From assembly GCF_019134595.1 (NCBI RefSeq), contig NZ_CP077770.1, positions 888,001-952,000 on the forward strand: a stretch of DNA of 64,000 nt. Direction: 5' to 3'. This document shows, one piece after another, positions 8,012-33,330 of this stretch; position 1 is the stretch's first letter, and each line of letters begins with the position of its first letter. Both the position numbers and the translations under genes were made by a program. The DNA is from Pseudoalteromonas shioyasakiensis. Lineage in GTDB: Bacteria > Pseudomonadota > Gammaproteobacteria > Enterobacterales > Alteromonadaceae. Below the pieces are notes generated by a model that worked only from the letters and a program-made list of their open reading frames with translations, made no database searches and was not told the origin of the DNA.

Positions 8012-8942
8012 AGATAGCCCATATTACAAACAGGTTTCTTTGCTCATAAGAATGCTGCCTGTGGTAGCAACAGAGACGGTTTTTGCACTTAAAGGTGGCA
8101 CCGCCATTAATTTATTTGTGAGAGATTTTCCTCGGTTATCTGTAGATATTGATCTTGCTTATCTTCCACTTGAACCAAGAGATGAGGCTTTGATTAATGT
8201 CAGGGCTGCATTGCAGCGCATTACAGACAGAATCAATACTCAACCAGATATCAGAGCGGCATTTCAGGATAATAAAGCTGATGAACTGAGAATAGTTGTA
8301 TCAAGTCCGGTTGCGACGATCAAAATTGAAGTGTCGCCCGTCGCCAGAGGTACATTGCATAGTGCAGAAATAATGGCAGTTCAAGAGTCTGTTGAATACG
8401 AGTTTGGTTATGCTGAGATTCAGGTAGTCAGTCTTCCCGATCTGTATGGTGGGAAATTGTGTGCTGCAATGGATCGCCAACATCCTCGCGACTTATTTGA
8501 TGTGCGTATGTTACTTGGCAGTGAAGGGGTTTCGAGAGAGATTTTAGTGGGTTTTTTAACCTATACATTAAGTCATCCTCGGCCTATTAATGAAGTCATG
8601 TCGCCAAACTGGCAGCCTCTGAATGAGAAATTTCAGGCAGAATTTGACGGAATGACTTTTGAAAAAGTTGAATGCGAAGACTTAGCCTCTGTTAGGCCCA
8701 TGATGTTAATTGAACTGCAAAAACATTTCACAGAAAGAGATCATGCTTTCCTTATGTCATTCAAAAGAGGGCAACCTGACTGGGCATTGTTTGACTATCC
8801 TAATGCAGCAGACTTGCCAGCGATTCGTTGGAAATTGCAGAACATTAACAAATTGGCAAAGAATCAAGCAAAACACCAAGAGCAATTAGATAAATTGAAG
8901 CAAGTGCTTGATGATTGGCTTGTTAACGCAAACGCCGAGTAA
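8004..8942 (+). CDS. mosT: MosT-like toxin, nucleotidyltransferase (AbiEii family)
   Basis: A 312-residue toxin with the nucleotidyltransferase signature GGTA (residues 31-34) and SVDID (46-50), which supplies the metal-binding acidic pair of AbiEii enzymes. The segment LPDLYGGKLCAAMDRQHPRDLFDVRML is the conserved second half of the fold. AbiEii enzymes transfer nucleotides, in characterised cases to tRNA. The ATG at 8004 has AAAGGTG upstream and overlaps the antitoxin stop by eight bases, so translation is coupled. The active-site residues look intact, so the toxin is presumably functional and held by MosA. Confidence 0.8.
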   Translation: MDKDSPYYKQVSLLIRMLPVVATETVFALKGGTAINLFVRDFPRLSVDIDLAYLPLEPRDEALINVRAALQRITDRINTQPDIRAAFQDNKADELRIVVSSPVATIKIEVSPVARGTLHSAEIMAVQESVEYEFGYAEIQVVSLPDLYGGKLCAAMDRQHPRDLFDVRMLLGSEGVSREILVGFLTYTLSHPRPINEVMSPNWQPLNEKFQAEFDGMTFEKVECEDLASVRPMMLIELQKHFTERDHAFLMSFKRGQPDWALFDYPNAADLPAIRWKLQNINKLAKNQAKHQEQLDKLKQVLDDWLVNANAE

Positions 8943-20266: not shown

Positions 20267-21583
20267 CTAAATATCGAGCCGCAAGTTTTCTTGTATTTCA
20301 TCTATCAGTGTTTTTGGCACATCCCATTCCTCAGCAAGCTGACGCCAAGTTGATACGTGCTCAATCGTTGCATCAATAATATCGTCGATCTTTTTCTTGT
20401 TAAAAACAGGGCTAAGTTTCTCTAAACTATAGAAATCACTTCGTGCAAAGTTATCTCTTTTACCATTCAAGCTCATCCAATGGCTGTTCACCCATTTACT
20501 GCCAGGTTTATAGCTATAAGCTAAATCATAAGCTGGTGCGAGAGACCATTTGTCTTTTTTCAGAATAAAGGCAAAGTTCTTTGAGTGGTCGTCATGATTT
20601 CGAGCAATGATATTGAACGTCATGCGCTTGAATAGCTGCTCAGCTTCAACAGCAGAAAGCTTCAATTGTCTGGCAATGCCAAATAACTCTGCGTAAGAAA
20701 ATGCCCCCGGCTTTTTATAATCAACGTGGGCAAGCCCGTTTAGCGTTTGTACGTGTACCTTGTTGTTTTTAATTCGATCAAACCGTTGTGTAATAAAGTG
20801 GCGTCGGTTGCCTTCTTGGAGTAAGCGGCATGGCATCATATCGACACCGCATTTGTTTGCCATTAGATGATAAACAAACTCCATTGCTCCATAGCCTAAT
20901 GGGTCACCGAAGGTTTCTTGATTTTTGTTATGTTCACTAACACCGTCAAATTTCATCAAATAATGAGTAAAACCACTTGGCACTTTGGCTTGGCCGGAGC
21001 GAACTTGAGTGAAATCTTCATTAAATGCTAATACGGCTTTCGGTCGTGCTCCTCCCGCACTCATGCCAACTGATAATAAAGACATCATTGCCTCTCTATC
21101 GTCTTGGCCATTTTGTTTGAGTTCTACTTCAAAATTACCTCGTGAATCTAAGATTTCTTGTGCAATAGAAACGAGCGATTGGATTTCTACTTGTTGTGAA
21201 GCATTTAAGCTTCGTAACTTTGTAGCTGGCGCATACTCAAGAGCTCCCATGCCTCGCTTTCCCGTATATTGGAGGCGTTGCAGTGGTGTAATGTCACCCG
21301 GTGAACGACCTTGACCTGCAACCCATGCGTTGAGAACTGCGTTACCAAAATCATCAGGTAAGGAGTCAGCTATTAAACCTGGTAGTCCTTTAAAGGTATT
21401 GAAATCCAGTTCGGGAAAGCTATAAATGCGATTCGATAATGGCATTTTGATTGGGGACAGCTCGACACCTTTTTTTATGAATCCTGGATCATATTCAAAT
21501 GATCCAAGTCCCTTTTCAGTGTCAAAACTCACTGCTCCAACAACATCGTCTTGGTATGTTATTGTAATGACTTCCATTACCAT
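20267..21583 (-). CDS. hipA: HipA-like toxin kinase
   Basis: A 438-residue serine/threonine kinase toxin, close to the length of E. coli HipA. Features: N-terminal couple-hipA region (LSPIKMPLSNRIY), GGARPK loop (177-182), substrate and nucleotide region HYLMKFDG, RHFITQRFDR, catalytic HDDHSKN (330-336) and the metal-binding aspartate in APAYDLAY (353). HipA of E. coli inactivates glutamyl-tRNA synthetase and causes growth arrest. The start overlaps the hipB stop; ATGs at 21583 and 21577 are both possible. The pair sits between traN and the conserved gene at 22.1 kb, hotspot 4, and is transcribed opposite to traN. Confidence 0.85.
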   Translation of the reverse strand: MVMEVITITYQDDVVGAVSFDTEKGLGSFEYDPGFIKKGVELSPIKMPLSNRIYSFPELDFNTFKGLPGLIADSLPDDFGNAVLNAWVAGQGRSPGDITPLQRLQYTGKRGMGALEYAPATKLRSLNASQQVEIQSLVSIAQEILDSRGNFEVELKQNGQDDREAMMSLLSVGMSAGGARPKAVLAFNEDFTQVRSGQAKVPSGFTHYLMKFDGVSEHNKNQETFGDPLGYGAMEFVYHLMANKCGVDMMPCRLLQEGNRRHFITQRFDRIKNNKVHVQTLNGLAHVDYKKPGAFSYAELFGIARQLKLSAVEAEQLFKRMTFNIIARNHDDHSKNFAFILKKDKWSLAPAYDLAYSYKPGSKWVNSHWMSLNGKRDNFARSDFYSLEKLSPVFNKKKIDDIIDATIEHVSTWRQLAEEWDVPKTLIDEIQENLRLDI

Positions 21584-21900
21584 TCTGGTGCTTCCTCATC
21601 TTTGTTACTGCGCTGGCCAGAGGCTCTCTGCCTTTTCTTGCCTTGCAGTTTGGCCAGCTGTAAGGGAGAAATTTCTTGTTTAGGGAGAAAAAGATCAATC
21701 TGCTGTGTGAGGTCTAATGCCATTAATATAGCAATCATGATGTCGAGCTGAACTTTTCCCTTTTCTGCATTCAAAACCGTTTTGCGGGCAATGCCAGCAA
21801 GTTGTGCAACTTCAGATTGTGTTAGGTCTCTATTTAGTCGAGCTTGCTTCAATCTGTCGCCGATCTCTTCTGCTAATGCTGTAGCTGTCACGCCTTTCAC
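21577..21900 (-). CDS. hipB: HipB-like antitoxin and repressor
   Basis: A 107-residue protein with an XRE-type helix-turn-helix (IGDRLKQARLNRDLTQSEVAQLAGIARKTVLNAEKGK shows the fold over residues 12-48) and a basic, flexible tail. It should neutralise HipA and repress the operon. The start codon is GTG at 21900. The stop TAATGG overlaps the hipA start. A palindromic operator lies just upstream of the gene. Confidence 0.82.
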   Translation of the reverse strand: MKGVTATALAEEIGDRLKQARLNRDLTQSEVAQLAGIARKTVLNAEKGKVQLDIMIAILMALDLTQQIDLFLPKQEISPLQLAKLQGKKRQRASGQRSNKDEEAPEW

Positions 21901-22103: not shown

Positions 22104-22706
22104 CTAGTTGGCGGGGGTATCTGTTTCCTCTTCAGTGATATCGTCATCGGTTAAAGGCACCGCTTGTTCAACCTCTGCTTCTTTACCCTTAGCTTGGGCT
22201 GATTTTCGTGCTCGAATTTCGATATCAATAATGCGTCGAGCCAGTTTGATAATGCGCTGTTGCCATGCGTAGTTGCCATCAACACGTTGCTTGTTGCTAA
22301 GCACGCTAGATAACCAGAGTGTGTCCATTGAGATCATCAACGCATCGAGTTTGCGCACTAAGCCAACAAACTGGCCAACCTGAGGCGAGCTGATTTTGGC
22401 GTTGAAGGTAATCGGATCGGTGTAGTCAGGTACTTCATCGATACCGTTGGACTCCATCAGTTTGTCCAAACGAGCTTGTTCGTTGTCTACCGCCTTAGCG
22501 CAATCCTCGATCAGCTGGCTAATGATCTGTTCCACTTCATCAATTTCGTTCTCATCGCCAATGATGCGCAGGATGACATCGATTCCGTAAAGCGCACTGA
22601 CCGTCCGTCTAAAAACACGGTCAACGACACGTTGTGCCTGTAAGCTGTTAATTGTGAATGATTGTTCAAAGATGGGTTTTGAGTAATTGGGTTTTGCTTG
22701 GGCCAT
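22104..22706 (-). CDS. Conserved ICE protein (s063-like, DUF1845/AcaB-type)
   Basis: A 200-residue, mostly helical, charged protein with no membrane segment. The pattern QSFTINSLQAQRVVDRVFRRTVSALYGIDVIL, followed by a segment around SPQVGQFVGLVRKLDALMISMDTLWLSSVL, resembles the DUF1845 family, in which the IncC activator AcaB has been placed. The C-terminal tail is acidic. In SXT/R391 the conserved gene at this place marks the right border of hotspot 4. It is coded opposite to the ssb block, and its promoter shares the 370-base intergenic region with it. A regulatory role is plausible but is inferred from family only. Confidence 0.6.
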   Translation of the reverse strand: MAQAKPNYSKPIFEQSFTINSLQAQRVVDRVFRRTVSALYGIDVILRIIGDENEIDEVEQIISQLIEDCAKAVDNEQARLDKLMESNGIDEVPDYTDPITFNAKISSPQVGQFVGLVRKLDALMISMDTLWLSSVLSNKQRVDGNYAWQQRIIKLARRIIDIEIRARKSAQAKGKEAEVEQAVPLTDDDITEEETDTPAN

Positions 22707-23007
22707 AAGTTTGCTCCTGATATGACAATAATCAGTCCCTAGCCTAATCCTCTGTGAGGTAATGGCCTCTCAGCTAGGTGGAAGAATTGAGCATCTTTCT
22801 AACTATCCTGTCTGGATAAGACGGTTACACTGACTATCAAATATTGCTGATCTGTTTCAGTGATATCTGCGCCTGAGAGCATGAGCTCAAAGGAAGCCCG
22901 CCGCTGAGTTTTCTCAGTGGTACTAAGAGGTAGCTAGCCTCCTTAAACAAATAGCCTGCATGTTTTTACATGCGCAACCATGCGTTCCTTACGGTTCGCT
23001 TTTTCAC
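22707..23007. promoter_or_regulatory. Structured intergenic region upstream of the ssb block
   Basis: About 300 bases without a gene between divergent genes. It holds several small stem-loops: CCGCTGAG/CTCAGTGG (about 22901-22921, with four T residues as the loop), GAGG/CCTC near 22927-22942, and GCATGT/ACATGC around TTTT near 22957-22972. The promoters of both flanking genes must lie here; I cannot place them with confidence. The density of hairpins suggests a long structured 5' leader for the rightward operon. Confidence 0.4.
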
Positions 23008-23009
23008 CA

Positions 23010-23071
23010 CCCAACTGGGGGAGTTTTCCCCAGTTGGGGGTGACTCCTTCACAACCAAATTAAGGAGTCAC
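23010..23071 (+). promoter_or_regulatory. Dual stem-loop leader of the 108-residue gene
   Basis: Stem 1: CCCAACTGGGG (23010-23020) and CCCCAGTTGGG (23028-23038), 11 perfect pairs around a 7-base loop. Stem 2: GTGACTCCTT (23040-23049) and AAGGAGTCAC (23062-23071), 10 perfect pairs around a 12-base loop. The 3' arm of stem 2 contains the AGGAG ribosome binding site; the ATG is at 23074. This is the cleanest member of the leader family. Confidence 0.7.
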
Positions 23072-23073
23072 CA

Positions 23074-23400
23074 ATGGAATATATCTTCGGATTTATTATC
23101 CAAATCGCAGGCATTATGTTGCTTGCAAAACTGAGCTGGTCGCTTTTGCGATTGCTTGCTCGTCAAAGCGTGCGCCCGTTTCGATTTGTACTTACTCAAA
23201 TCAAGCGATTGCTCACACCAAAACCAAAACGTCGTCCAATGGCAGTGCCTAAAGCTCCTGGTATGCCCCGTTTGACATCTGCGTTTTACAAAGAGCCACA
23301 TCAGTACGACATGGCTTTACTCGAAATACCAACCTATCTGCGTCGTCAGTCTTCTTTGCCCAGCCGGGTAGAAGCGACTGTGTGCACAGAGTTCAACTAA
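23074..23400 (+). CDS. Small membrane protein with a basic cytoplasmic tail, unknown function
   Basis: A 108-residue protein: one N-terminal hydrophobic segment (IFGFIIQIAGIMLLAKLSWSLL, about residues 4-26), then a strongly basic segment (QIKRLLTPKPKRRPMAVPKAPG) and a polar tail. It is not a lipoprotein. It is the first gene of the ssb-bet-exo block, 15 bases before ssb. I do not recognise a family; the basic stretch could bind nucleic acid or phospholipid head groups. It is conserved by position in SXT/R391 elements as far as I know. Confidence 0.6.
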   Translation: MEYIFGFIIQIAGIMLLAKLSWSLLRLLARQSVRPFRFVLTQIKRLLTPKPKRRPMAVPKAPGMPRLTSAFYKEPHQYDMALLEIPTYLRRQSSLPSRVEATVCTEFN

Positions 23401-23415
23401 GACGAGGAGAACATC

Positions 23416-23835
23416 ATGAAAAACCAAGTAACACTCATAGGCTACGTTGGCTCTGAGCCAGAGACGCGAGCCTATCCATCAGGTGATTTGGTGACCAGCA
23501 TTTCGCTGGCCACTTCTGAGAAATGGCGCGACCGTCAATCCAATGAGCTCAAAGAGCATACGGAATGGCATCGGGTCGTTTTTCGAGATCGTGGTGGATT
23601 TAAGTTAGGGCTAAGGGCAAAAGATTTGATCCAAAAAGGAGCGAAGCTTTTTGTTCAAGGGCCCCAGCGCACGCGCTCATGGGAGAAAGATGGCATTAAG
23701 CATCGATTGACCGAAGTGGACGCGGACGAGTTTCTGCTTCTTGATAGTGTGAATAAAGCATCTGAGCCATCACCGGCGGATGATGCAGGCTCCCAAACTA
23801 ATTGGGCACAAACTTATCCTGAACCAGATTTTTAA
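23416..23835 (+). CDS. ssb: Single-stranded DNA-binding protein
   Basis: A 139-residue SSB. The OB-fold starts with KNQVTLIGYVGSEPETRAYPSGDLVTSISLATSEKW (pattern over residues 2-37) and continues with EWHRVVFRDR and KGAKLFVQGPQRTRSW. The C-terminal tail ends YPEPDF, an acidic tip ending in phenylalanine as in other SSBs, though the classical DDDIPF is not kept. It protects single strands during transfer and works with Bet and Exo. It has an ordinary GAGGAG site with no hairpin over it, unlike most neighbours. Confidence 0.9.
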   Translation: MKNQVTLIGYVGSEPETRAYPSGDLVTSISLATSEKWRDRQSNELKEHTEWHRVVFRDRGGFKLGLRAKDLIQKGAKLFVQGPQRTRSWEKDGIKHRLTEVDADEFLLLDSVNKASEPSPADDAGSQTNWAQTYPEPDF

Positions 23836-23853
23836 CCGAGCAAAAACGCTTTA

Positions 23854-23910
23854 ACCCAGCCGGGAGTACTTTCCCGTCAGGGTCAGACTCCCACTTTGAT
23901 TGTCGGAGTC
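23854..23910 (+). promoter_or_regulatory. Dual stem-loop leader of bet
   Basis: Stem 1: ACCCAGCCGGGA (23854-23865) with TCCCGTCAGGGT (23872-23883), 10 of 12 positions paired. Stem 2: GACTCC (23886-23891) with GGAGTC (23905-23910), six perfect pairs around a 13-base loop. Stem 2 hides the GGAG ribosome binding site of bet (ATG 23915). Confidence 0.6.
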
Positions 23911-23914
23911 CACA

Positions 23915-24733
23915 ATGGAAAAACCAAAGCTAATCCAACGCTTTGCTGAGCGCTTTAGTGTCGATCCAAACAAGTTGTTCGATACACTAAAAGCAACAGC
24001 ATTCAAGCAACGTGACGGTAGTGCACCGACCAATGAGCAGATGATGGCGCTTTTGGTGGTTGCAGATCAGTACGGCTTGAACCCTTTCACCAAAGAGATT
24101 TTTGCGTTCCCTGATAAGCAAGCTGGAATTATTCCAGTGGTAGGTGTCGATGGATGGTCTCGCATCATCAATCAACACGACCAGTTTGATGGCATGGAGT
24201 TTAAGACTTCAGAAAACAAAGTCTCACTGGATGGCGCGAAAGAATGCCCTGAATGGATGGAATGCATCATCTATCGGCGCGACCGTTCGCACCCAGTCAA
24301 AATCACTGAGTATCTGGATGAAGTCTATCGACCGCCTTTTGAAGGTAACGGCAAAAATGGCCCTTACCGTGTAGATGGTCCATGGCAGACGCACACTAAG
24401 CGAATGCTAAGGCATAAATCCATGATCCAGTGTTCCCGCATTGCGTTTGGCTTTGTGGGAATTTTCGATCAAGACGAAGCGGAGCGAATTATCGAAGGCC
24501 AAGCAACACACGTTGTTGAGCCATCGGTGATTCCACCCGAGCAAGTTGATGATCGTACCCGAGGGCTTGTTTACAAGCTTATCGAGCGGGCGGAAGCTTC
24601 AAACGCTTGGAATAGTGCATTGGAATACGCCAATGAACATTTTCAGGGTGTTGAACTGACGTTTGCGAAACAAGAAATATTTAATGCACAGCAACAAGCA
24701 GCCAAAGCGCTCACACAGCCTTTAGCTTCTTAG
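23915..24733 (+). CDS. bet: Bet, single-strand annealing recombinase (RecT/Redbeta family)
   Basis: A 272-residue recombinase of the Redbeta/RecT family. The conserved region includes KATAFKQRDGSAPTNEQMMALL, QYGLNPFTKEIFAFPDKQAG, PVVGVDGWSRIINQH and a C-terminal part of the core around TKRMLRHKSMIQCSRIAFGF. It anneals complementary strands and, with Exo, lets co-resident SXT/R391 elements form hybrid ICEs. I use ATG 23915, which has GGAG 7 bases upstream; the frame opens 15 bases earlier within the leader. Length matches lambda Bet. Confidence 0.92.
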   Translation: MEKPKLIQRFAERFSVDPNKLFDTLKATAFKQRDGSAPTNEQMMALLVVADQYGLNPFTKEIFAFPDKQAGIIPVVGVDGWSRIINQHDQFDGMEFKTSENKVSLDGAKECPEWMECIIYRRDRSHPVKITEYLDEVYRPPFEGNGKNGPYRVDGPWQTHTKRMLRHKSMIQCSRIAFGFVGIFDQDEAERIIEGQATHVVEPSVIPPEQVDDRTRGLVYKLIERAEASNAWNSALEYANEHFQGVELTFAKQEIFNAQQQAAKALTQPLAS

Positions 24734-24755
24734 CGCCACGCATTCATTTTACTAA

Positions 24756-24814
24756 CCCTGGCGGGATTATTCTCCCGTCAGGGGGAAGGTCTCGTCTTTT
24801 TTTGGAGATCTTCC
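24756..24814 (+). promoter_or_regulatory. Dual stem-loop leader of a 47-residue gene
   Basis: Stem 1: CCCTGGCGGGA (24756-24766) with TCCCGTCAGGG (24773-24783), 11 pairs including one G-U. Stem 2: GGAAGGTCTC (24784-24793) with GAGATCTTCC (24805-24814), 10 pairs including one G-U. The stems abut, so they could stack. The 3' arm of stem 2 ends directly at the ATG and covers the GGAG site. Confidence 0.65.
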
Positions 24815-24958
24815 ATGACTAAATCAGCCTCACTTTTTCGCTTGGTATTGGTTGTTGCCCTTGTCTTAGGTTCGATTCAAGCCGGTAAAGCGGCAATTGA
24901 TTCGGTTCAAGCAAGTGTTGTTCAGCACCAAACAGCGTTAGCACAAGCAGCAAAGTAA
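24815..24958 (+). CDS. 47-residue membrane or secreted peptide between bet and exo
   Basis: A short open frame, MTKSASLFRLVLVVALVLGS then a polar, alanine- and glutamine-rich stretch ending HQTALAQAAK. The N-terminus is basic followed by a hydrophobic core, and AGKAA could be a signal peptidase site, so it is either an anchored or a secreted peptide. It has a GGAG site at correct spacing, and its own dual stem-loop leader of the same kind as its neighbours, which is the best evidence that it is real. No family recognised. Its position suggests a function tied to the Bet-Exo block. Confidence 0.6.
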   Translation: MTKSASLFRLVLVVALVLGSIQAGKAAIDSVQASVVQHQTALAQAAK

Positions 24959-24966
24959 CCACTTAA

Positions 24967-25015
24967 CCCTGAAGGGGAGTTCTCTCCTTCAGGGGAGTCT
25001 CCCCTCAAAGGAGAC
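24967..25015 (+). promoter_or_regulatory. Dual stem-loop leader of exo
   Basis: Stem 1: CCCTGAAGG (24967-24975) with CCTTCAGGG (24986-24994), nine perfect pairs. Stem 2: GTCTCC (24997-25002) with GGAGAC (25010-25015), six perfect pairs around a 7-base loop, covering the GGAG site; the ATG is at 25019. An alternative palindrome, GGGGAGTCTCCCC (24992-25004), would compete with both stems. Confidence 0.65.
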
Positions 25016-25018
25016 AAT

Positions 25019-26035
25019 ATGAAGGTTATCGACCTATCACAACGTACTCCTGCATGGCACCAGTGGCGCATTGCAGGGGTTACGGCATCTGAAGCCCCAA
25101 TTATTATGGGGCGTTCACCCTACAAAACACCTTGGCGATTATGGGCAGAAAAAACTGGATTCGTATTACCGGAAGACCTGTCGAATAATCCTAATGTGCT
25201 TCGCGGTATTCGGTTGGAGCCTCAAGCAAGGCGAGCATTTGAGAATGCGCATAATGACTTTCTTCTGCCGCTATGTGCAGAAGCCGATCATAACGCAATC
25301 TTTCGAGCCAGCTTTGATGGCATCAACGATGCGGGCGAACCCGTTGAACTGAAATGTCCTTGCCAGTCAGTTTTTGAGGATGTGCAAGCTCACCGAGAAC
25401 AAAGCGAGGCGTACCAGTTGTATTGGGTACAAGTACAGCATCAAATACTGGTCGCCAATAGCACGCGAGGTTGGTTGGTTTTCTATTTTGAGGATCAACT
25501 GATTGAGTTTGAAATACAACGAGACGCATTGTTCTTAACTGAATTGCAAGAAACGGCGCTTCAGTTTTGGGAGTTAGTACAGACCAAAAAAGAACCGTCA
25601 AAATGCCCTGAGCAAGATTGTTTTGTTCCTAAGGGTGAAGCCCAATACCGTTGGACATCGCTGTCTCGACAGTATTGCTCAGCACATGCCGAAGTGGTCC
25701 GACTGGAAAATCACATCAAATCTTTGAAAGAAGAAATGCGAGACGCCCAGTCGAAATTGGTCGCTATGATGGGTAACTACGCTCATGCCGATTATGCTGG
25801 GGTCAAACTCAGCCGCTACATGATGGCGGGTACGGTGGACTATAAGCAATTGGCCACCGATAAATTAGGCGAGCTGGACGATCAGGTTTTAGCTGCTTAC
25901 CGAAAAGCGCCACAAGAGCGGTTGCGTATCAGCACCAATAAGCCAGAGCAGCCCGTTGAAACACCAATCAAAATCAGCCTTGAGCAAGAGAACTTGGTTC
26001 TGCCAGGTGACTCGCCGAGCTCATTTTATTTTTAA
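25019..26035 (+). CDS. exo: Exo, lambda-type (YqaJ) 5'-3' exonuclease
   Basis: A 338-residue exonuclease of the YqaJ/lambda Exo fold. The start QRTPAWHQWRIAGVTASEAP is typical; the catalytic metal site is formed by the aspartate of RASFDGI, then VELKCP with the E-x-K pair. QVQHQILV gives the helix after the active site. It resects double-strand ends so that Bet can anneal them. A polar C-terminal extension of about 100 residues ends in SPSSFYF, a tail shared with two proteins downstream. It is followed by a short inverted repeat with T residues. Confidence 0.88.
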   Translation: MKVIDLSQRTPAWHQWRIAGVTASEAPIIMGRSPYKTPWRLWAEKTGFVLPEDLSNNPNVLRGIRLEPQARRAFENAHNDFLLPLCAEADHNAIFRASFDGINDAGEPVELKCPCQSVFEDVQAHREQSEAYQLYWVQVQHQILVANSTRGWLVFYFEDQLIEFEIQRDALFLTELQETALQFWELVQTKKEPSKCPEQDCFVPKGEAQYRWTSLSRQYCSAHAEVVRLENHIKSLKEEMRDAQSKLVAMMGNYAHADYAGVKLSRYMMAGTVDYKQLATDKLGELDDQVLAAYRKAPQERLRISTNKPEQPVETPIKISLEQENLVLPGDSPSSFYF

Positions 26036-26044
26036 CGTTCACTT

Positions 26045-26065
26045 GGAGCCGATTTCGGCTCCTTT
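26045..26065 (+). terminator. Putative terminator after exo
   Basis: GGAGCCGA (26045-26052) and TCGGCTCC (26055-26062) with TTTC after it. The stem is perfect but the T-tract is short, so it may be a weak or partial terminator. Confidence 0.5.
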
Positions 26066-26182
26066 CTCATGTACTTACATCGAGTGCATCAGAAAGCAGT
26101 TTCACTCGTAGCCAATGCTGGGTACGAATGATAGAGCGAGCTGAACTCTTATATACACAGCCATACCACAATCAACACACCA

Positions 26183-26238
26183 CCCGACGGGGACTTCATT
26201 CCCTGTTGGGGCATGGGGCCTCGTCAAAACAGATGAGG
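26183..26238 (+). promoter_or_regulatory. Dual stem-loop leader of the cobS-like gene
   Basis: Stem 1: CCCGACGGGGA (26183-26193) with TCCCTGTTGGG (26200-26210), 11 pairs with two G-U. Stem 2: CCTCGTC (26219-26225) with GATGAGG (26232-26238), seven pairs with one G-U around six bases. Stem 2 covers the GAGG site; the ATG is at 26245. Confidence 0.6.
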
Positions 26239-26244
26239 TTTACC

Positions 26245-27204
26245 ATGACTGAACAATCCCCATTTTTGGTTCAAGTGAATCAAGCGTTTAATGTCCCGGC
26301 TCCTGATGCTTTCGTTCTGGAAGGATTTGGTGCCGACACTACCCATCCAAACATTCCCGTTCGCAAGGACGAGTATGTTTTTAGAAAAGAAGACTTACGT
26401 GACGTATTGGCGTTTTTGTCTAACCCAGACGGTGACGGTTTGTATATTACAGGCCCCACTGGATGCGGTAAGACCTCGCTAATTTGCCAAGTTGCTTCTC
26501 GATTGAATTGGCCTGTTCAGCAAATTACTGCGCACGGTCGATTGGAGTTGTCCGATCTTATCGGTCACCACACGCTGGTTAATGGCAACATGACCTTTGT
26601 GTATGGACCGCTGGCACTGGCTGTAAAGCATGGCCATTTGCTGATCATTAATGAAATGGATCTTGCTGAGCCTGCTGAACTGGCTGGGCTCAATGACATT
26701 TTGGAAGGTGCCCCGTTGGTCATCGCACAAAATGGCGGTGAGATCATCATGCCACATAACAAGTTTCGTTTTATCGCAACCGGCAACAGTGCGGGCAGCG
26801 GTGACCAAACGGGCTTGTATCAAGGTGTGCTTCAACAGAATTTGGCTTTTCTTGATCGCTTTAGAATCATCGAAGCGACCTATGCAGAGCCTTCTGTAGA
26901 GGAAGCCATTCTGGAGAACATTGCGCCGGGCTTGCCAGAAGTCTTTCGCCAAAAAATGGTGAAGGTGGCTGGTGACATTCGTCGTCTTTTTATTGGGGGC
27001 GCGGATGGCGGTGCTGAGCTTAGTATCACCATGTCCACTCGGACCTTGGTGCGCTGGGCAAAGTTAACACTTGCTTTTAAAGGTGCTCCTAACGCAGTGG
27101 AGTATGCACTGGTTCGGTCTTTGACGGCTCGTGCTGAGTTGGAGCAACGTGAAGCCATTCACCGTATTGCCGCTGATGTCTTCGGTGATCACTGGGAGGA
27201 TTGA
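26245..27204 (+). CDS. cobS: MoxR/CobS-type AAA+ ATPase
   Basis: A 319-residue AAA+ ATPase. Walker A is ITGPTGCGKTSL at about residues 68-79, Walker B is LLIINEMDLAEPAELAGL, where asparagine-glutamate replaces the usual DE, as is common in CobS/MoxR proteins. Sensor 1 is FRFIATGNSAGS and an arginine-finger region follows in LAFLDRFRII. It is named cobS in SXT by similarity to the cobalt chelatase ATPase, but nothing here points to cobalamin. With the DUF3150 and VWA proteins downstream it looks like a MoxR-VWA remodelling set. The start at 26245 has GAGG upstream; the frame opens earlier at 26128. Confidence 0.82.
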   Translation: MTEQSPFLVQVNQAFNVPAPDAFVLEGFGADTTHPNIPVRKDEYVFRKEDLRDVLAFLSNPDGDGLYITGPTGCGKTSLICQVASRLNWPVQQITAHGRLELSDLIGHHTLVNGNMTFVYGPLALAVKHGHLLIINEMDLAEPAELAGLNDILEGAPLVIAQNGGEIIMPHNKFRFIATGNSAGSGDQTGLYQGVLQQNLAFLDRFRIIEATYAEPSVEEAILENIAPGLPEVFRQKMVKVAGDIRRLFIGGADGGAELSITMSTRTLVRWAKLTLAFKGAPNAVEYALVRSLTARAELEQREAIHRIAADVFGDHWED

Positions 27205-27971
27205 TGATGGAAAAGTGCTTTGCTCTTTACCGTTACAGTCATTCTGATGGGACAGCCAAAGAATGGGCCATTTATGTTGGATCAGACACCCAGGAGATTG
27301 AAGTTCGGTTTGGAAAAGCTGGTCAATTGTCGCAGCAGCGATTGATTGATTCGACTGATCCTAACGCTGAAGCAGACCGACGAATCAATGAGAAAATCAA
27401 CAAGGGTTATCGATTGGTTGGACAAGTCGGCATTGATCATCAAGGGCGGCCATTTGAACTCTCAAATGCGCTAGATAGCGTCGCGTGCGCCAATAACGTC
27501 AGTTGGGAGTTTCGTACTCGCAAGGACGTCAATGGCCAAGTCTCGCTGGCTCAAAAAGCGTTGTTCGATATGGCAAAGCTGCTTGAAGCCTATGGCTTGG
27601 CTGTTATTGATGATAACCAGGTCAGGATTGGAGAATGGTCATTAGGGTTTTGCAAAAGCGAATTACCTAGTACCAATCAAATCAGCATGGTGTCAGGTGA
27701 AGGCGCTGGCATTGTTAACACTGATGATGGCCCGTGGCCATTGTTGCTGTTACTGGCCTTTAAGCGTCAATTACCACCACTGTGTTCGCTCACAGTAGCG
27801 AGTCCTGAAGGGATAAAAGTATCCGACCAACTGAAGTTGGAAAAAGATGTATTGCGGTTGCTAGGCAGTGATTTAGAGCGGGTTCGCCCGATTGCTGAAG
27901 CACTGGACTTAATGCCTGCGAAAATCGATCTCAACCAATCGTCGCCTGATTCGCAAAATTACTATTTTTGA
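27204..27971 (+). CDS. WGR-domain-like conserved ICE protein with YYF tail
   Basis: A 255-residue protein. The N-terminal 75 residues (CFALYRYSHSDGTAKEWAIYV, VRFGKAGQLSQQR, ADRRINEKINKGYRLVG) resemble a WGR domain, a fold often seen in nucleic-acid-linked proteins. The rest has no recognised motif. TGATG couples it to the upstream ATPase gene, so no stem-loop leader is present. The C-terminus is QNYYF, like the ends of Exo and the DUF3150 protein. Probably a partner of the MoxR-like ATPase, by position. Confidence 0.6.
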   Translation: MMEKCFALYRYSHSDGTAKEWAIYVGSDTQEIEVRFGKAGQLSQQRLIDSTDPNAEADRRINEKINKGYRLVGQVGIDHQGRPFELSNALDSVACANNVSWEFRTRKDVNGQVSLAQKALFDMAKLLEAYGLAVIDDNQVRIGEWSLGFCKSELPSTNQISMVSGEGAGIVNTDDGPWPLLLLLAFKRQLPPLCSLTVASPEGIKVSDQLKLEKDVLRLLGSDLERVRPIAEALDLMPAKIDLNQSSPDSQNYYF

Positions 27972-28002
27972 TAGTGATGTTGCCATTAGCGCGTCAACTA
28001 CT

Positions 28003-28068
28003 ACCACCCAAACGGGGGCCATTGCTCCTGTTGGGAGTGGTGCGTCCCCATCTCGCATGAGGATGCAC
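28003..28068 (+). promoter_or_regulatory. Dual stem-loop leader of the DUF3150 gene
   Basis: Stem 1 lies in 28003-28041: CCCAAACGGGGG with CTCCTGTTGGG, one bulged A and two G-U pairs; outer ACCAC and GTGGT can also pair. Stem 2: GTGCGTCC (28040-28047) with GGATGCAC (28061-28068), eight pairs with one G-U around 13 bases, covering the AGGA site. The ATG is at 28070. The outer pairs of stem 1 and the 5' arm of stem 2 share bases 28040-28041. Confidence 0.6.
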
Positions 28069-28069
28069 T

Positions 28070-29023
28070 ATGAGTATTCAAACCCTCGACAAACTCTTGA
28101 TTTGTCACATCGACTGTTCCATCTGGAGCGGTAGAAAAAAACTAAGGCCTGAAGATTTCAGACTAGCCAATGGCAGCCAACTTCCACCGAAGGATGTTGC
28201 CAGCTTAGGGAGTAAAAAAATTTGCGACCCTGAGGCATTGGCGAACTTTGAAAGGCTTAAGAAAGAAGCGCAACGCTTGTGTGAGCAAGTCGGTGTGCGG
28301 TTTTTAGGTGGCTATGCCGTCCCTGAAGACCGAATTGATCAGATTGTTCCAGAGCTTGACCGGATCGGTCAGGAGTTTGCGCAGTGCAAGCAGTTGTTCT
28401 TGGACAACTATGATCAGGTGACGTTTGACTGGGTTGCAAAACACCCGGAATTTGCAGATGCAATCCGGCGTGCGCTGTCACCCATCGAAGACGTGGAACA
28501 ACGGCTTCAGTTCGATTATGCCATCTATCGAATGCAACCGGCTGAACAAGCTGGTGGCTTAGATGACAAGGTCAATGGCATGGGACACACCCTCTTTAGG
28601 GAGGTGGCTCGTGATGCCAATGAACTGTTTGAGCGTTCCGTTGCAGGTAAGAATCAAATCAGCCAGCGAGCCCTTAATCCTCTCAAGCGATTAAGAGACA
28701 AGTTGGATGGTTTGTCATTCCTGGATCATCGAGTTCAGCCGATGGTTGAAGCGATGGACAATTTATTTGTTCGTCTGCCGAAGACCGGCCCTGTGACAGA
28801 CAATCTCTATCACGAACTGATGGCGACCATTTTAATTTTGTCTGATCCAGACAAGATGAGAATGCACGGTGAAGGTCAATTGGATATCAGACAACTGATG
28901 CCCAAACCTGAACCTAAACCCGCACAGCCAGTATCTGCTCAGGCAGATAACTTACGTGCAATACCACAACCAACCGTCAGACCAAACCTTGGTTCGACTG
29001 TACCAAACTCATTTTATTTCTAA
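28070..29023 (+). CDS. DUF3150 protein with NSFYF tail
   Basis: A 317-residue soluble, mostly helical protein. The start TLDKLLICHIDCSIWSGRKKL and the block PVLDRIGQEFAQ-like EFAQCKQLFLDNYDQVTFDWV match the DUF3150 family, which sits beside MoxR-type ATPases and VWA proteins in plasmids, phages and ICEs. No catalytic site is visible. A proline-rich linker near residue 280 leads to the C-terminal NSFYF. It likely acts in a complex with the ATPase at 26.2 kb and the VWA protein at 29.6 kb; function unknown. Confidence 0.65.
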   Translation: MSIQTLDKLLICHIDCSIWSGRKKLRPEDFRLANGSQLPPKDVASLGSKKICDPEALANFERLKKEAQRLCEQVGVRFLGGYAVPEDRIDQIVPELDRIGQEFAQCKQLFLDNYDQVTFDWVAKHPEFADAIRRALSPIEDVEQRLQFDYAIYRMQPAEQAGGLDDKVNGMGHTLFREVARDANELFERSVAGKNQISQRALNPLKRLRDKLDGLSFLDHRVQPMVEAMDNLFVRLPKTGPVTDNLYHELMATILILSDPDKMRMHGEGQLDIRQLMPKPEPKPAQPVSAQADNLRAIPQPTVRPNLGSTVPNSFYF

Positions 29024-29026
29024 CGT

Positions 29027-29080
29027 CCTTGAGGGCATGTTGCCCTGAAGGGCGCATGTCCTCTGAACTATGTAAGAGGA
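29027..29080 (+). promoter_or_regulatory. Dual stem-loop leader of the 146-residue gene
   Basis: Stem 1: CCTTGAGGGCA (29027-29037) with TGCCCTGAAGG (29041-29051), 10 of 11 paired, 3-base loop. Stem 2: TCCTCT (29059-29064) with AGAGGA (29075-29080), six perfect pairs around 10 bases, covering the AGAGGA ribosome binding site; the ATG is at 29085. Confidence 0.6.
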
Positions 29081-29084
29081 AATT

Positions 29085-29525
29085 ATGCAATCAACCATCC
29101 ATAACCCCAGCCAACTGAACCAGTTTGAACCACATTTTCGTGGTGTGACTGATGCGGTTGAAAGCGAATCGATACCAGAAGTGGCGTGTTGTCGAGCGTT
29201 AGTACAACGGTCGTACTCAACACATAGTGTTTTGATCCCCAAGAACCCTGTGCTGATCGCAGATGCGGACGGGCAAGGTGTTTGGGTAACGGCCATGGTA
29301 TTTGTTCCAAACATGGCATTGCAGCAAACCGCTTTTGAGCGGGCCTGGCTGCAATATCAACACGAGGTGTCTACTCAGTTACAAGACCAGTACGGTCTGA
29401 CATTGGATGACATCCTGAGTTTAGACCAGCTTAAAACGTCATTTGAACAGCACGAGAGTCCAGCTCAATTGGTGGCTTGGTTAGGTCAAAAATACGACCT
29501 GGATAAGCTAAAAGCACAGGTTTAA
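29085..29525 (+). CDS. Conserved ICE protein, unknown function
   Basis: A 146-residue soluble acidic protein with no recognisable motif. It contains SYSTHSVLIPKNPVLIADADGQGVWVTAMVFVPN, a beta-rich core, then a helical C-terminal half (LQDQYGLTLDDILSLDQLK). It lies between the DUF3150 and VWA genes and has its own structured leader. A role with the MoxR-VWA set is suggested only by position. Confidence 0.55.
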   Translation: MQSTIHNPSQLNQFEPHFRGVTDAVESESIPEVACCRALVQRSYSTHSVLIPKNPVLIADADGQGVWVTAMVFVPNMALQQTAFERAWLQYQHEVSTQLQDQYGLTLDDILSLDQLKTSFEQHESPAQLVAWLGQKYDLDKLKAQV

Positions 29526-29535
29526 ACATCCACAT

Positions 29536-29594
29536 TCCCAGCGGGGAAACGCTCCCGCTGAGGGAGTATTCCCCTTAATGATTAGGAGACTCCC
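29536..29594 (+). promoter_or_regulatory. Overlapping stem-loop leader of the VWA gene
   Basis: Stem 1: CAGCGGG (29539-29545) with CCCGCTG (29554-29560), extended by TCCC (29536-29539) with GGGA (29562-29565). Stem 2: GGGAGT (29562-29567) with ACTCCC (29589-29594), enclosing the AGGAG site. GGGA belongs to both, so the two folds partly exclude each other, like a switch. The ATG is at 29595. Confidence 0.6.
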
Positions 29595-31244
29595 ATGAAT
29601 CATCCATTAAAAAACGCACTGCCAATCGTTGCCGCCGCTTATGGCGAAAAGTTTGGTGTGAAGGTGCTTATTCAAGGACAAGATGCGTTTACCGATGGTG
29701 AGCGGATTGTGATCCCAACAGCAAACCCAGACGACCCACACTATCAACAGATAGCTTGGGGTTATCTGGCTCATGAAGCGGCGCATATTCGGCATACTAA
29801 TTTTGACATGGTGCAGAAGGCGTCGTCCAAACCGATCCGTAAGGCACTTCTCAATATCATTGAGGACGTTCGCATTGAAAACGAATTGGCAAAGGATTAC
29901 CCCGGAACCCGGCGCAGTATTTCGCAAGTGATTGAGTACATGGTGGACACTCAGCAAATGTGTGTACCTGAACAGCTTGAGCCTGCATCTAACTTGCAAG
30001 CATGGTTGTTGTTCCGCTTGAGATGCCATTTTCTCGGTCAGAAAGCACTGACGCCTTTGTATCAAGTTGTTGATGAAAGAGTGAGACAACTCTTTCCTGC
30101 CGCAGCGATGAGCCGGTTAAGCGCCATGCTGACAGCAGTGCCTAGCTTAGGCTCTACAGGTGAAGTGCTGAAACTTGTCGATGCCATCGTTGCCATGTTG
30201 GAAGACGAATCTCGTCCACCACAGGATGAGTCGGATGCTGATAGCGGTAATGACATTGGACAAGCTGCGAGTAATGACAGCAGTAGTGACAGTCAAACCC
30301 CAAAAACAGACTCGTCTGCAACAGGGGATGCTGCTGAAACGGGTGATTCTGATAACTCTGCTCAAGCTGACAATTTGCGACAAGCCTTAGAGGCCAGTGC
30401 CGCTCAGTTTGAACCCGATACCTTTGCACAAGTGGCAGAAGTGTTGTCGGAACAAGCTGAAGGACATCAGGGCGTCACTCCACTCAGTTTGCCCCAAGCA
30501 GAGCAAGCTATGTTGGGTGATGAGGAAATTTTGACTTTATCGGCTTCCGAGTCCGCTCAAATTCGAGCCCGACTTAGGGGCATGGTTCAGTCCAGTCAGG
30601 ACAATCGGAATCATGCAAAACGGCACGGTCTTCGAGTGGCAACCCATCGTCTTGCCGCTTCACAAGCAGGTGAGTCGAGATTGTTTATTCAAAGGCAACC
30701 TCGCATTGCGCCTAATGCTGCTGTGCACTTGCTGGTCGATATATCGGGTTCAATGGGTAAACCCATTGGCGAAGGTAATCGAAAGTACTTTCATGTTGCC
30801 AATGAAGCCGCTTTGGCTTTGGCCATGGCACTGGAAGGCATACCGGGTGTTGTACCTGCGGTCAGTTATTTTCCTGGTATTCATCAGGAAGTTTCTATCG
30901 CGTTATTGCCCAAGCAATCGGTTCGACATCGGGCCGCCTGTTTTGACCAAAAACCACGAGGTTGTACGCCTATGGCACAAGCGATGTGGTTTGCGGCAAA
31001 CAGTTTGTTAGCGCAAAAACAGAAGCGAAAGCTAATGATAGTGCTAACGGATGGTGACCCAGATGATTGGGCTGCCACGCATGACATTGTTGACCGGTGC
31101 AGACGCAGTGGCTTTGAGCTGCTGGGGATCGGGATTCAAACACGCAGTGTTGAGAAATTCTTTCCTCAAAGCATTGTGATTAATGACGTCAAAGATCTGA
31201 AGCGTGAGTTATTCGAAGTAACACAACAACTGTTAATTCAGTAA
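29595..31244 (+). CDS. VWA-domain protein (CobT-like)
   Basis: A 549-residue protein. The N-terminal part has HEAAHIRH at residues 60-67, a zincin-like HExxH pattern. The centre is acidic and low-complexity (serine, aspartate, glutamine-rich, about residues 200-260). The C-terminal VWA domain has the metal site HLLVDISGSMG near residue 380, with threonine and aspartate contacts in GCTPMAQAM and IVLTDGDPDDW. This layout is that of CobT-like partners of MoxR ATPases. It may recruit substrates for the ATPase. The HEAAH motif could be a metalloprotease site or a structural one. Confidence 0.75.
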   Translation: MNHPLKNALPIVAAAYGEKFGVKVLIQGQDAFTDGERIVIPTANPDDPHYQQIAWGYLAHEAAHIRHTNFDMVQKASSKPIRKALLNIIEDVRIENELAKDYPGTRRSISQVIEYMVDTQQMCVPEQLEPASNLQAWLLFRLRCHFLGQKALTPLYQVVDERVRQLFPAAAMSRLSAMLTAVPSLGSTGEVLKLVDAIVAMLEDESRPPQDESDADSGNDIGQAASNDSSSDSQTPKTDSSATGDAAETGDSDNSAQADNLRQALEASAAQFEPDTFAQVAEVLSEQAEGHQGVTPLSLPQAEQAMLGDEEILTLSASESAQIRARLRGMVQSSQDNRNHAKRHGLRVATHRLAASQAGESRLFIQRQPRIAPNAAVHLLVDISGSMGKPIGEGNRKYFHVANEAALALAMALEGIPGVVPAVSYFPGIHQEVSIALLPKQSVRHRAACFDQKPRGCTPMAQAMWFAANSLLAQKQKRKLMIVLTDGDPDDWAATHDIVDRCRRSGFELLGIGIQTRSVEKFFPQSIVINDVKDLKRELFEVTQQLLIQ

Positions 31245-31261
31245 CCACATCAATTTTACCA

Positions 31262-31322
31262 CCCTGCGGGGACGATTCCGTCTCCGTCAGGGCATGGGTT
31301 CGTCTCCGCTTTTTTTGGAGAC
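31262..31322 (+). promoter_or_regulatory. Dual stem-loop leader of radC
   Basis: Stem 1: CCCTGCGGGGAC (31262-31273) with GTCTCCGTCAGGG (31280-31292), 12 pairs with one G-U and one bulge. Stem 2: GTCTCC (31302-31307) with GGAGAC (31317-31322), six perfect pairs around GC plus seven T. Stem 2 covers the GGAG site; the ATG is at 31327. Note that GTCTCC also occurs in the 3' arm of stem 1, so GGAGAC could pair there instead. Confidence 0.65.
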
Positions 31323-31326
31323 TCCT

Positions 31327-31824
31327 ATGAAAAACAGAAAGTTCTTAGCTGGCGAAGAAGCCGGTACTTACATCGTTCCTGAGCAAGTGACTGAAGCGGA
31401 TATCTTAGATATGGCGCTTAAACTTGCCCGTGGTCGATTGAGTAAAGGTCGCAAAATTGAACAGCCATCATCGGCGTTCTCATACCTGCAAACTCTGATG
31501 CACGAGTATGAGCACGAAGTCTTTGGCGTACTGTTTCTTGATACAAAGCATCGCGTCATTCGATTTGAAGAGCTATTCAAAGGTACTTTAGATGCGGCGA
31601 GCGTGTATCCAAGGGAAGTAACAAAACGAGCGCTAGAACTTAATGCAGCAGCAGTGATACTGGTTCATAACCATCCATCGGGTGATCCTGAACCCAGTGA
31701 AGCTGATAAACGCATCACTCATCGACTCCGTGACGCCTTGTCACTTGTTGATATTCGAACGCTTGACCATGTCGTGGTCGCATCCGAGGGCTGCGTTTCG
31801 CTTGCCGAACGCGGTTATCTTTAA
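31327..31824 (+). CDS. radC: RadC-family JAMM-domain protein
   Basis: A 165-residue RadC protein of the short, mobile-element type. The JAMM metalloprotease motif is HNHPSGDPEPSEAD, with an upstream glutamate in VFGVLFLDTKHRVI. RadC proteins are common in ICEs, prophages and islands; their biochemical role is not settled. The start is ATG 31327, after GGAG; a longer frame to 31294 runs into the leader hairpin. The TAATG stop overlaps the next gene. Confidence 0.85.
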   Translation: MKNRKFLAGEEAGTYIVPEQVTEADILDMALKLARGRLSKGRKIEQPSSAFSYLQTLMHEYEHEVFGVLFLDTKHRVIRFEELFKGTLDAASVYPREVTKRALELNAAAVILVHNHPSGDPEPSEADKRITHRLRDALSLVDIRTLDHVVVASEGCVSLAERGYL

Positions 31825-32165
31825 TGAATGGGCGCATTGCCCATTCTCCTTCATCACAAAAGCAGTCCCATCAACACACGTCATCACAGCTCGAATTTCT
31901 ATTTGAGTTTGATGATGCCCCAGTCACTTGGTCTGACACGGAAATCTGGCAGTTACGCGAAGGCATTCTATTGGATGCGATCCGTGTATTGCTGGACGGT
32001 CGTGTTAGTACTCGGTTGCGCAAGGATGTGTTGTCGTGGATTAAAAATGACGAATTAGCGCCATTTTGCTTTCGTGTTTGCGCGATGGCTGCGGTTGTCG
32101 ATCCTGATGTGCTTCGTGATTCCATCATGTGGCTATTAAGACGACATGGTATCCAGCTTGACTAA
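31824..32165 (+). CDS. Conserved ICE protein after radC, unknown function
   Basis: A 113-residue protein; its ATG overlaps the radC stop (TAATG), so it is coupled. The C-terminal half (SDTEIWQLREGILLDAIRVLLDGRVSTRLRKDVLSWI) is helical and basic; DAIRVLLDGR might contact nucleic acid. No membrane segment. No family recognised. The stop codon context TAACGTTC matches those of exo and the DUF3150 gene. Confidence 0.55.
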   Translation: MNGRIAHSPSSQKQSHQHTSSQLEFLFEFDDAPVTWSDTEIWQLREGILLDAIRVLLDGRVSTRLRKDVLSWIKNDELAPFCFRVCAMAAVVDPDVLRDSIMWLLRRHGIQLD

Positions 32166-32166
32166 C

Positions 32167-32240
32167 GTTCCTGCATTAACCAAACGGCTTAATGCAGGAA
32201 CCAAGCTGACTTTTACCACCAGTGGTAGGAGTCGGCTTTT
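32167..32240 (+). promoter_or_regulatory. Two stem-loops before the primase gene
   Basis: Stem 1: GTTCCTGCATTAA (32167-32179) with its 13-base complement at 32189-32201. Stem 2: GACTTTTACCAC (32208-32219) with GTGGTAGGAGTC (32222-32233), 12 pairs with two G-U, followed by GGCTTTTT. Stem 2 with its T-run could be an intrinsic terminator or attenuator. Unlike the other leaders, the ribosome binding site AAGGAGG (32246-32252) is left free. Confidence 0.6.
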
Positions 32241-32256
32241 TACTTAAGGAGGTTAT

Positions 32257-33330
32257 ATGGCGTTACCTTTACAAATTGAAACAGTAAGGCCATATCTTAA
32301 TGGCCAATGGCTTCAAGTATTAGCGGCATTGGTGCCAGAACTTGATGCCGCTATTGCTCGAAAAGGCCGTCATGTGGCTTGCCCTGTTCATGGCGGTCGT
32401 GATGGCTTTAGGCTGTTCAAAGATGCTGAATATACCGGAGGTGGCGTTTGTAACACCTGCGGTATCTTTCATGATGGTTTTGAACTGTTGTCTTGGATCA
32501 ATGGATGGAACTTTGCTCAGTCTATTGAGGCAATCGGCCAGGTTCTTGGTATTCAACCCGGACAAATACAAGCGCCTACTCGGCCAATACCGAGTAACGC
32601 TGTTGATTGGAAGGCTAAAAAGCAGGAAGAGGACAAAGCGATTATCTATCGCTTGAATCAAACCTGGGGAGAAACGTTATCCCTTGCAGATACTCGTGCG
32701 CAACCAGTTTGGAACTACTTGCATCGTCGTGGCATTGTTACCCGGCTTCGTCCTGAATGGGATTCGGTGCTGAGGTTTCATCCAAACTTGCCTTACCATG
32801 ATGAAGATGGTCTGTTTATCGATAGCTACCCAGCGCTGCTAGGTAAAATCGTTACTCAGCAAGGGCGTTCGGCCACGTTTCATCGGATCTACCTAAGTGA
32901 AGATGGATTTAAAGCACCGGTTGAAAAGCCAAAAAAGATGATGCCCATACCCAGTGACCGAACAATCACCGGTGGTGCCATTCCGATAGGTGAGCCTGGT
33001 GAAGTACTAGGTGTTTCTGAAGGTATAGAGACGGCTTTAGCTGTTACCAGAGCAACGGGGCAAACATGTTGGTCGGTTGTGAATGCAACGCTACTGGCTA
33101 GGTTTGAACCACCAAGTAATGTGAAAATGCTGTACATCTGGGCAGACCACGATCTCTCTGAGACTGGCCTGAATGCAGCGAATGAACTCAAGAAAAAAGC
33201 CTGGCAAAAAGGCATTCTGACACAAGTCCTGATCCCTCCGATACCAACGTCACTCGGCGTGAAAAGTTGGGATTGGAATGATGTGCTGAATGTTTACGGT
33301 GCCATGGGCTTTCCGAAAGTTCATGTCTGA
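32257..33330 (+). CDS. DNA primase-like protein (zinc ribbon and Toprim)
   Basis: A 357-residue protein. An N-terminal zinc-binding region (HVACPVHGGRDGFRLF, then VCNTCGIFHDGFELL) is followed by a Toprim domain: the glutamate in GVSEGIETALAVTRATG and the DxD pair in LYIWADHDLSETG. This matches plasmid and ICE primases that prime the complementary strand in the recipient. AAGGAGG gives a strong ribosome binding site. It is followed by a strong terminator, so the conserved block ends here. Confidence 0.8.
   Translation: MALPLQIETVRPYLNGQWLQVLAALVPELDAAIARKGRHVACPVHGGRDGFRLFKDAEYTGGGVCNTCGIFHDGFELLSWINGWNFAQSIEAIGQVLGIQPGQIQAPTRPIPSNAVDWKAKKQEEDKAIIYRLNQTWGETLSLADTRAQPVWNYLHRRGIVTRLRPEWDSVLRFHPNLPYHDEDGLFIDSYPALLGKIVTQQGRSATFHRIYLSEDGFKAPVEKPKKMMPIPSDRTITGGAIPIGEPGEVLGVSEGIETALAVTRATGQTCWSVVNATLLARFEPPSNVKMLYIWADHDLSETGLNAANELKKKAWQKGILTQVLIPPIPTSLGVKSWDWNDVLNVYGAMGFPKVHV

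Follow-up and report, generated by a model that had tools for sequence, protein, structure and literature searches.

In ColIb-P9, repZ is controlled by a translational pseudoknot, which serves one replication gene and involves a leader peptide and an antisense RNA; ermC-type attenuators respond to ribosome stalling on a leader peptide; and in phage Mu the Com protein switches mom. SXT/R391 and IncC elements move antibiotic resistance between bacteria, and their control is described, in the accessible parts of the published accounts, at the level of transcription (SetCD, AcaCD). Here we analysed a 64,000-nucleotide (nt) stretch of the Pseudoalteromonas shioyasakiensis genome (contig NZ_CP077770.1, positions 888,001 to 952,000; hereafter the window), which holds an element that we take, from its gene order, to be of the SXT/R391 type. 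Nine genes of its ssb-bet-exo-radC block carry structured leaders, in which the arm hiding the Shine-Dalgarno (SD) sequence is complementary to the top of an upstream hairpin as well. If these leaders are switches, as we propose, the recombination block would have a second layer of control, at translation, which is new to us. The whole evidence consists of sequence statistics and computed folds.

An initial annotation of the window had proposed two consecutive hairpins before nine genes of this block. In plain minimum-energy folds of the 125 nt 5' of each start, both hairpins were found at eight of the nine starts, with hairpin 1 shortened at 29595, and the bet leader (23915) formed both only when the pairing span was limited to 45 nt. 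The 45 leaders on which a covariance model (R1) was then trained came from the window, an IncC plasmid (L078), a Vibrio owensii plasmid (L079) and an Aeromonas hydrophila plasmid (L080). From these four loci 66 gene starts were folded, 52 were picked by eye, and seven with an ambiguous hairpin 1 were dropped before the first permutation test. RNAalifold predicted zero pairs on a MAFFT alignment of the 45 leaders; because the registers of hairpin 2 differ between leaders, the structure of the model was set by hand from pair counts. On the plus strand of the window, R1 found exactly nine leaders (31.5-45.6 bits), which are training members, and the next match, before ssb, reached 9.4 bits. The nine leaders are thus confirmed by folding as well as by the model.

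In addition to the two hairpins first described, the leaders hold a third pairing: segment A, the upper 5' arm of hairpin 1 with its loop, is complementary to segment B, the arm of hairpin 2 that hides the SD sequence (segment C). The energy of each leader's own A:B pairing was compared with that of permuted leaders of the same locus, and none of 20,000 permutations reached the own value in any set. It was -15.4 versus -10.8 kcal/mol for the 45 training leaders, -14.8 versus -10.2 kcal/mol for 115 matches in untrained loci (plus strand, at least 24.9 bits, 16 loci, with the window, L012 and L078-L080 excluded), and -16.0 versus -13.0 kcal/mol for 102 matches of at least 25.0 bits in 20 further regions, which were fetched from sampled genomes and gave 148 matches at E up to 0.01. 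Dereplication left 237 of the 262 leaders, with -15.2 versus -11.2 kcal/mol. Since R1 holds no A:B pairs, the matches were not selected for this complementarity. The advantage of the own pairing was seen in 32 of the 33 loci having at least three leaders. Own A with own B gave -15.3 kcal/mol, compared with -9.6 for a reversed and -8.2 for a shuffled B region, and against the shuffled own B region the empirical p was at most 0.05 in 213 of the 262 leaders. The excess over permutation was 2.03 for A:B, 1.77 for B:C and 0.50 for A=C identity; with G-U pairs counted, the A:B score exceeded the A=C score in 155 of 160 leaders and equalled it in five. A:B helices also preferred G-U over A-C (0.805 versus 0.737 permuted, 1/2000), which favours the mRNA strand. 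By these comparisons, B is the common partner, or hub, of A and C, and B:C and A:B are both maintained leader by leader.

Covariation between paralogous leaders, which had been taken as a sign of selected RNA structure, was examined in 146 distinct rows of the best 150 model matches, in an alignment fitted to the model. The cells changed on both sides (161 versus 105 in shuffles) and the covariation score (0.243 versus 0.183) were reached by none of 500 shuffles, and support the claim, while the number of pairs with two-sided change (12 versus 10.6) lay within the shuffle range (89/500).

All nine leaders lie on the plus strand. The leader of the 108-amino-acid (aa) gene (start 23074) occupies 23005..23076, with hairpin 1 at 23010-23038, A at 23015-23025, B at 23041-23052 and hairpin 2, which hides the SD sequence, at 23039-23072 (40.9 bits). 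That of bet (23915) occupies 23850..23917 (hairpin 1 23854-23883, A 23861-23868, B 23886-23893, hairpin 2 23886-23910; 35.7 bits), followed by those of the 47-aa gene (24815) at 24751..24817 (hairpin 1 24756-24783, A 24759-24772, B 24784-24797, hairpin 2 24784-24814; 44.3 bits) and exo (25019) at 24962..25021 (hairpin 1 24967-24994, A 24969-24982, B 24995-25008, hairpin 2 24997-25015; 31.5 bits). Before the gene of an AAA/CbbQ-type (CobS-like) ATPase (26245), the leader spans 26178..26247 (hairpin 1 26183-26210, A 26186-26199, B 26212-26226; 45.6 bits), and its hairpin 2 (26212-26247) includes the start codon. The DUF3150 gene (28070) has its leader at 28002..28072 (hairpin 1 28007-28035, A 28013-28023, B 28039-28050, hairpin 2 28037-28071; 44.1 bits), and the 146-aa gene (29085) at 29019..29087, where hairpin 1 (29024-29054) stands right after the upstream stop codon (29021-29023), with A at 29030-29040, B at 29055-29064 and hairpin 2 at 29059-29080 (33.4 bits). 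The last two belong to the CobT-like VWA gene (29595), at 29531..29597 (hairpin 1 29539-29560, A 29542-29551, B 29565-29575, hairpin 2 29562-29594; 32.9 bits), and to radC (31327), at 31257..31329 (hairpin 1 31262-31292, A 31265-31276, B 31299-31310, hairpin 2 31293-31329; 35.6 bits).

R1 was also searched against SXT/R391 and IncC elements, and the leaders occur across both types. The own genome (4.72 Mb) gave 18 matches of at least 31.5 bits, half of them in the window and the other nine in a second cluster on the opposite strand (G000:C1:3500629-3508965, at 3.50-3.51 Mb), which presumably is a second related element; all others scored at most 20.7 bits. Under stricter filters, 17 matches were listed. 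The IncC plasmid pVC1447 (159,635 bases, searched in four pieces) has 27 matches of at least 22.9 bits, on one strand and within a single block of about 27 kb. Their ends fall at annotated starts in 23 cases, at other in-frame starts of annotated genes in two, and at unannotated reading frames in two. The leader is an aid in placing gene starts and flags small unannotated genes. The two flagged frames (L140, 19726 and 43454) encode 30 and 48 aa. Thirteen annotated genes of the block have no match at the annotated start, including the two whose starts are shifted. A start codon at the match end is partly built in, as R1 includes it; the lengths of the open reading frames (ORFs) behind the matches (median 179 aa in the 115-match batch and 163 aa in the 102-match batch), together with the annotated IncC starts, are a better test of start placement.

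Matches at E of at most 1e-4 were found in 34 of 274 sampled genomes of the class and in 21 of 299 of the phylum, seven of the latter being of other classes; the own genome is in both samples, which overlap, some genomes have a single match, and the many-genome search scored only part of the candidates. Strong matches in untrained loci came from Marinobacter, Alcanivorax, Methylobacter, Comamonas, Halomonas, Paraglaciecola and an Edwardsiella plasmid, among others, and some of the fetched elements are of another type, with STY4534-family, DUF6094, DUF6573 and RadC genes. One long hairpin, distinct from the leader family, precedes a small gene in L078 (about 6930-7000; 61 aa) and in L080 (about 7540-7605; 59 aa), and the IncC and Aeromonas plasmid copies differ in sequence.

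The six segments of a leader follow in the order 1 (CCC), A (GGGG and loop), A' (CCCC), 4 (GGG), B (anti-SD) and C (SD, in some leaders with the start codon). In a closed state, 1:4 and A:A' would form hairpin 1 and B:C hairpin 2, which would conceal the ribosome binding site, while in an open state A:B, optionally with A':4, would form one long hairpin and release C and segment 1. Occupying or unfolding the base of hairpin 1 would then expose the start site. Two mutually exclusive folds per leader seem probable to us, and on balance we favour the view that each leader acts in the mRNA as a switch of translation, gated at hairpin 1. A pseudoknot with hairpin 1 intact is sterically unlikely, by reasoning. 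In computed folds of 160 leaders, keeping the five first bases of hairpin 1 unpaired doubled the probability of an unpaired GGAG (0.170 to 0.341), compared with only 0.176 when the five bases 5' of hairpin 1 were masked instead, and with a rise from 0.166 to only 0.197 when hairpin 1 was swapped for that of another leader of the same locus. The second batch (102 leaders) showed a smaller effect (0.152 to 0.229 with the own hairpin 1 and 0.147 to 0.174 with a swapped one). Such a pattern would be expected of a switch with its gate at the base of hairpin 1. The mean cost of exposing the SD sequence was 7.5 kcal/mol with the own and 9.1 kcal/mol with a swapped hairpin 1. According to these folds, masking segment 1 would open the site in part of the leaders; we infer both the opening in cells and its trigger.

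Compared with the systems named above, the leaders resemble the repZ pseudoknot in that the top of an upstream hairpin is complementary to the SD-hiding arm, as was found in this family. They differ from it in serving up to 27 genes per element, in that no general leader peptide was found, and in that A:B seems, by reasoning, to require the unfolding of hairpin 1. With ermC-type attenuators they share segments with alternative partners and an SD sequence hidden by default; however, in this family it is A, not A', that pairs with B. In 22700-32400, 17 terminator-like sites were found, and none coincides with either hairpin of any of the nine leaders, which thus do not have the form of intrinsic terminators or attenuators.

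The leaders differ in B and C but share the core of hairpin 1, consistent with a single trigger for many genes. Given a switch, the ribosome is a tentative candidate: as a first guess, a 30S subunit would stand by at the A/U-rich, G-poor stretch 5' of hairpin 1, and where an upstream stop codon is near, a terminating ribosome might act instead. An RNA-binding protein or small RNA is, again given a switch, only slightly less probable as the trigger. The ten bases 5' of hairpin 1 contain only 1-9% G and are mostly unpaired (0.68 versus 0.44 farther upstream), and ribosomes or a factor could land there. In pVC1447, 18 of the 27 leaders begin at most 34 bases after an annotated stop (five immediately after it) and eight at 131 bases or more; in five of the 27, the UAA of UAACCC is itself the annotated upstream stop. 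Over all 262 leaders, 14 stand directly behind the stop of an ORF of at least 40 codons with an SD sequence, and stop triplets 5' of hairpin 1 occur at the frequency predicted from base composition. A general coupling to upstream termination was considered and dropped, as UAA before CCC is not commoner than expected. According to the accessible part of PMC4344509, SetCD gives a strong peak before a large operon for RecA-independent recombination. In our own reading this operon is the window block, and such a peak means that the block is also controlled at transcription.

Several results weigh against a switch of this kind. The open state is worse than the closed one by a median of 6.4 kcal/mol, and by about 16 kcal/mol for the window leaders of 23074 and 24815; forcing the open fold leaves an average of 40% of the SD region paired, compared with 68% in the closed fold. 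Access rose by at least 0.2 in only 71 of the 160 masked leaders and fell by as much in five. L122 shows no A:B signal and L120 barely any. With G-U pairs left out of the count, A:B scores above A=C in 122 of 160 leaders, the same in 24 and below it in 14. B:C has no preference of G-U over A-C (ratio 1.07 versus 0.99), and many of the elements are related, so that the leaders are not fully independent. UAA stands before CCC in 72 of the 262 leaders, with 66 expected from base composition, and upstream stops are widely spread. As the closed fold is favoured, the leader alone should be mostly off; the large gaps and the limited number of gains imply that not every leader need switch easily; and the frequency of UAA with the scatter of stops implies that a terminating ribosome could serve only some leaders and cannot be the general trigger.

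Other explanations start from the same observations. A shared RNA-binding protein or small RNA might bind the core of hairpin 1 and switch the whole gene set on or off, in the manner of Com and mom in phage Mu, with A:B relaying the binding to the start site; the common core and AACCC start beside variable B and C, and the 9 to 27 leaders in one block per element, would suit such a factor. We consider it rather unlikely, as the leaders occur in elements with different gene sets, for which ribosomes or a host factor are simpler, and as no candidate factor was found among ten Pfam-scanned proteins (eight of the window block and two of L078), a slight search with the rest of the elements not scanned. 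The dominance of the closed fold in silico would agree with static leaders, in which hairpin 2 keeps basal translation low and neighbouring genes uncoupled, hairpin 1 protects the message or aids its processing, and A:B is a by-product, but a by-product A should not fit its own B better than the B of other leaders, and this explanation is improbable. The initial annotation had offered three functions. The idea of equal translation rates leaves the leader-by-leader match between the two hairpins unexplained; a block on translating read-through messages and the binding of a shared factor are both possible; and the data point to two exclusive folds per leader, which is more specific than any of the three.

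Palindromes of this kind might also act in DNA, as folded single strands after transfer, as recombination sites or as single-strand promoters. Weinberg et al. raised a DNA role for STAXI, as far as the accessible part of PMC2864571 goes. Several block genes belong to DNA metabolism, one IncC leader nearly duplicates another, and deletions join two leaders in two integrative and conjugative elements: in L027 no gene from CobS-like through CobT-like is detected and the flank of the former's leader continues into the radC leader, and in L033 the 47-aa gene is undetected and its upstream flank is fused to hairpin 1 of exo. Such junctions indicate that leaders can also serve as short homologies, whatever their main role. 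However, each leader lies on the strand of its gene, at the SD sequence and the start codon, and the G-U preference of A:B (not shared by B:C) speaks for RNA, so that a primary role in DNA is very improbable. Template switching in quasi-palindromes is a known mutational mechanism, for which the inverted repeats A-B and B-C are a substrate, and it could yield the complementarity of A, B and C without selection. Alone, though, it would not put repeats at gene starts in many elements, and A differs from C while both pair with B; we regard this origin as the least probable of those considered.

The pairing rule of the leaders is simple and testable in a reporter. It is conceivable, though we hold it with some doubt, that they form a portable, self-contained switch spread through unrelated conjugative elements of Proteobacteria, in which many block genes (27 in one plasmid) answer to one trigger and each keeps its private complementarity; such a switch could time these genes to transfer or establishment.

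Neither the window leaders nor those of L078-L080 matched a family in Rfam, with curated or with relaxed thresholds, and radC RNA, STAXI and EFASI had no match in the window or in these three loci. Among the 20 fetched regions, 14 were compared with Rfam, yielding radC RNA (four), STAXI (two), EFASI (one), group II introns and tRNA. Like the leaders, radC RNA (RF01754) is a structured leader RNA of mobile-element genes, and it adjoins the 5' side of a leader in L131 and once in L128; it differs in being a separate structure of 149 positions. The L131 copy (8712-8854) ends at 8854, and the leader begins at 8873. Of the three copies in L128 (12078-12226, 13586-13738 and 15331-15476), one stands directly before a leader, one shares 36 bases with a weak leader match (21.7 bits), and one has no leader match nearby. 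STAXI (RF01728), described in the accessible part of PMC2864571 as a repeated pseudoknot, and EFASI (RF02957) share element L133 with the leader, one STAXI ending 42 bases before a leader match; they differ in structure and position, with matches in L133 only (among the 14 regions) and without leader overlap. This neighbourhood suggests that the leader, radC RNA and STAXI belong to one RNA-rich layout of such blocks. The accessible parts of PMC4344509, PMC4207636, PMC2786100, PMC3118119, PMC9299015, PMC2864571 and PMC12370729 do not mention such leaders, and a search of the open-access literature yielded no description of the family; whole texts, subscription papers and supplements lay outside its scope, and an earlier notice is possible.

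The plus-strand block runs from 23074 to about 33300 and comprises the 108-aa gene, ssb, bet, the 47-aa gene, exo and the CobS-like gene, followed by the DUF3150 gene, the CobT-like VWA gene, radC and a primase-like gene, with a few unnamed genes interspersed. The names ssb, bet and exo were taken from annotated relatives; the Pfam scan of the ten proteins gave DUF3150, a primase-type zinc ribbon with Toprim, DUF7146 and one sub-threshold match. The region 22900-32300 is present entire, at about 97% identity, in seven of 5426 E. coli genomes and in four plasmid-collection records. Among 77 loci fetched with the Bet protein, 43 encode a Bet of at least 95% identity, and most have the same neighbours. 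The genes that overlap the ends of the CobS-like gene (27204..27971) and of radC (31824..32165), both on the plus strand, had been described as lacking the leader, and indeed neither they nor the primase-like gene (32257) have a model match up to E = 10. The same had been said of ssb (23416..23835, plus strand), which lies 15 bases 3' of the preceding gene. This holds in the window, where only 9.4 bits are reached at 23354-23421, but not in the IncC plasmid, where ssb has a leader of 46.2 bits; the absence in the window thus goes with the position directly behind the preceding gene.

A terminator-like hairpin with a short T run lies 3' of exo (26045-26062), which suggests that the CobS-like gene may begin a separate transcript. 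Two strong hairpins at 32167-32238, 5' of the primase-like gene, do not match the leader model and leave the SD sequence uncovered, and the second of them is the strongest terminator-like site of the block. Finally, on the minus strand of the window (20267-21900), a 438-aa gene stands beside a 107-aa helix-turn-helix-like gene, a pair judged by eye to be HipA/HipB-like.

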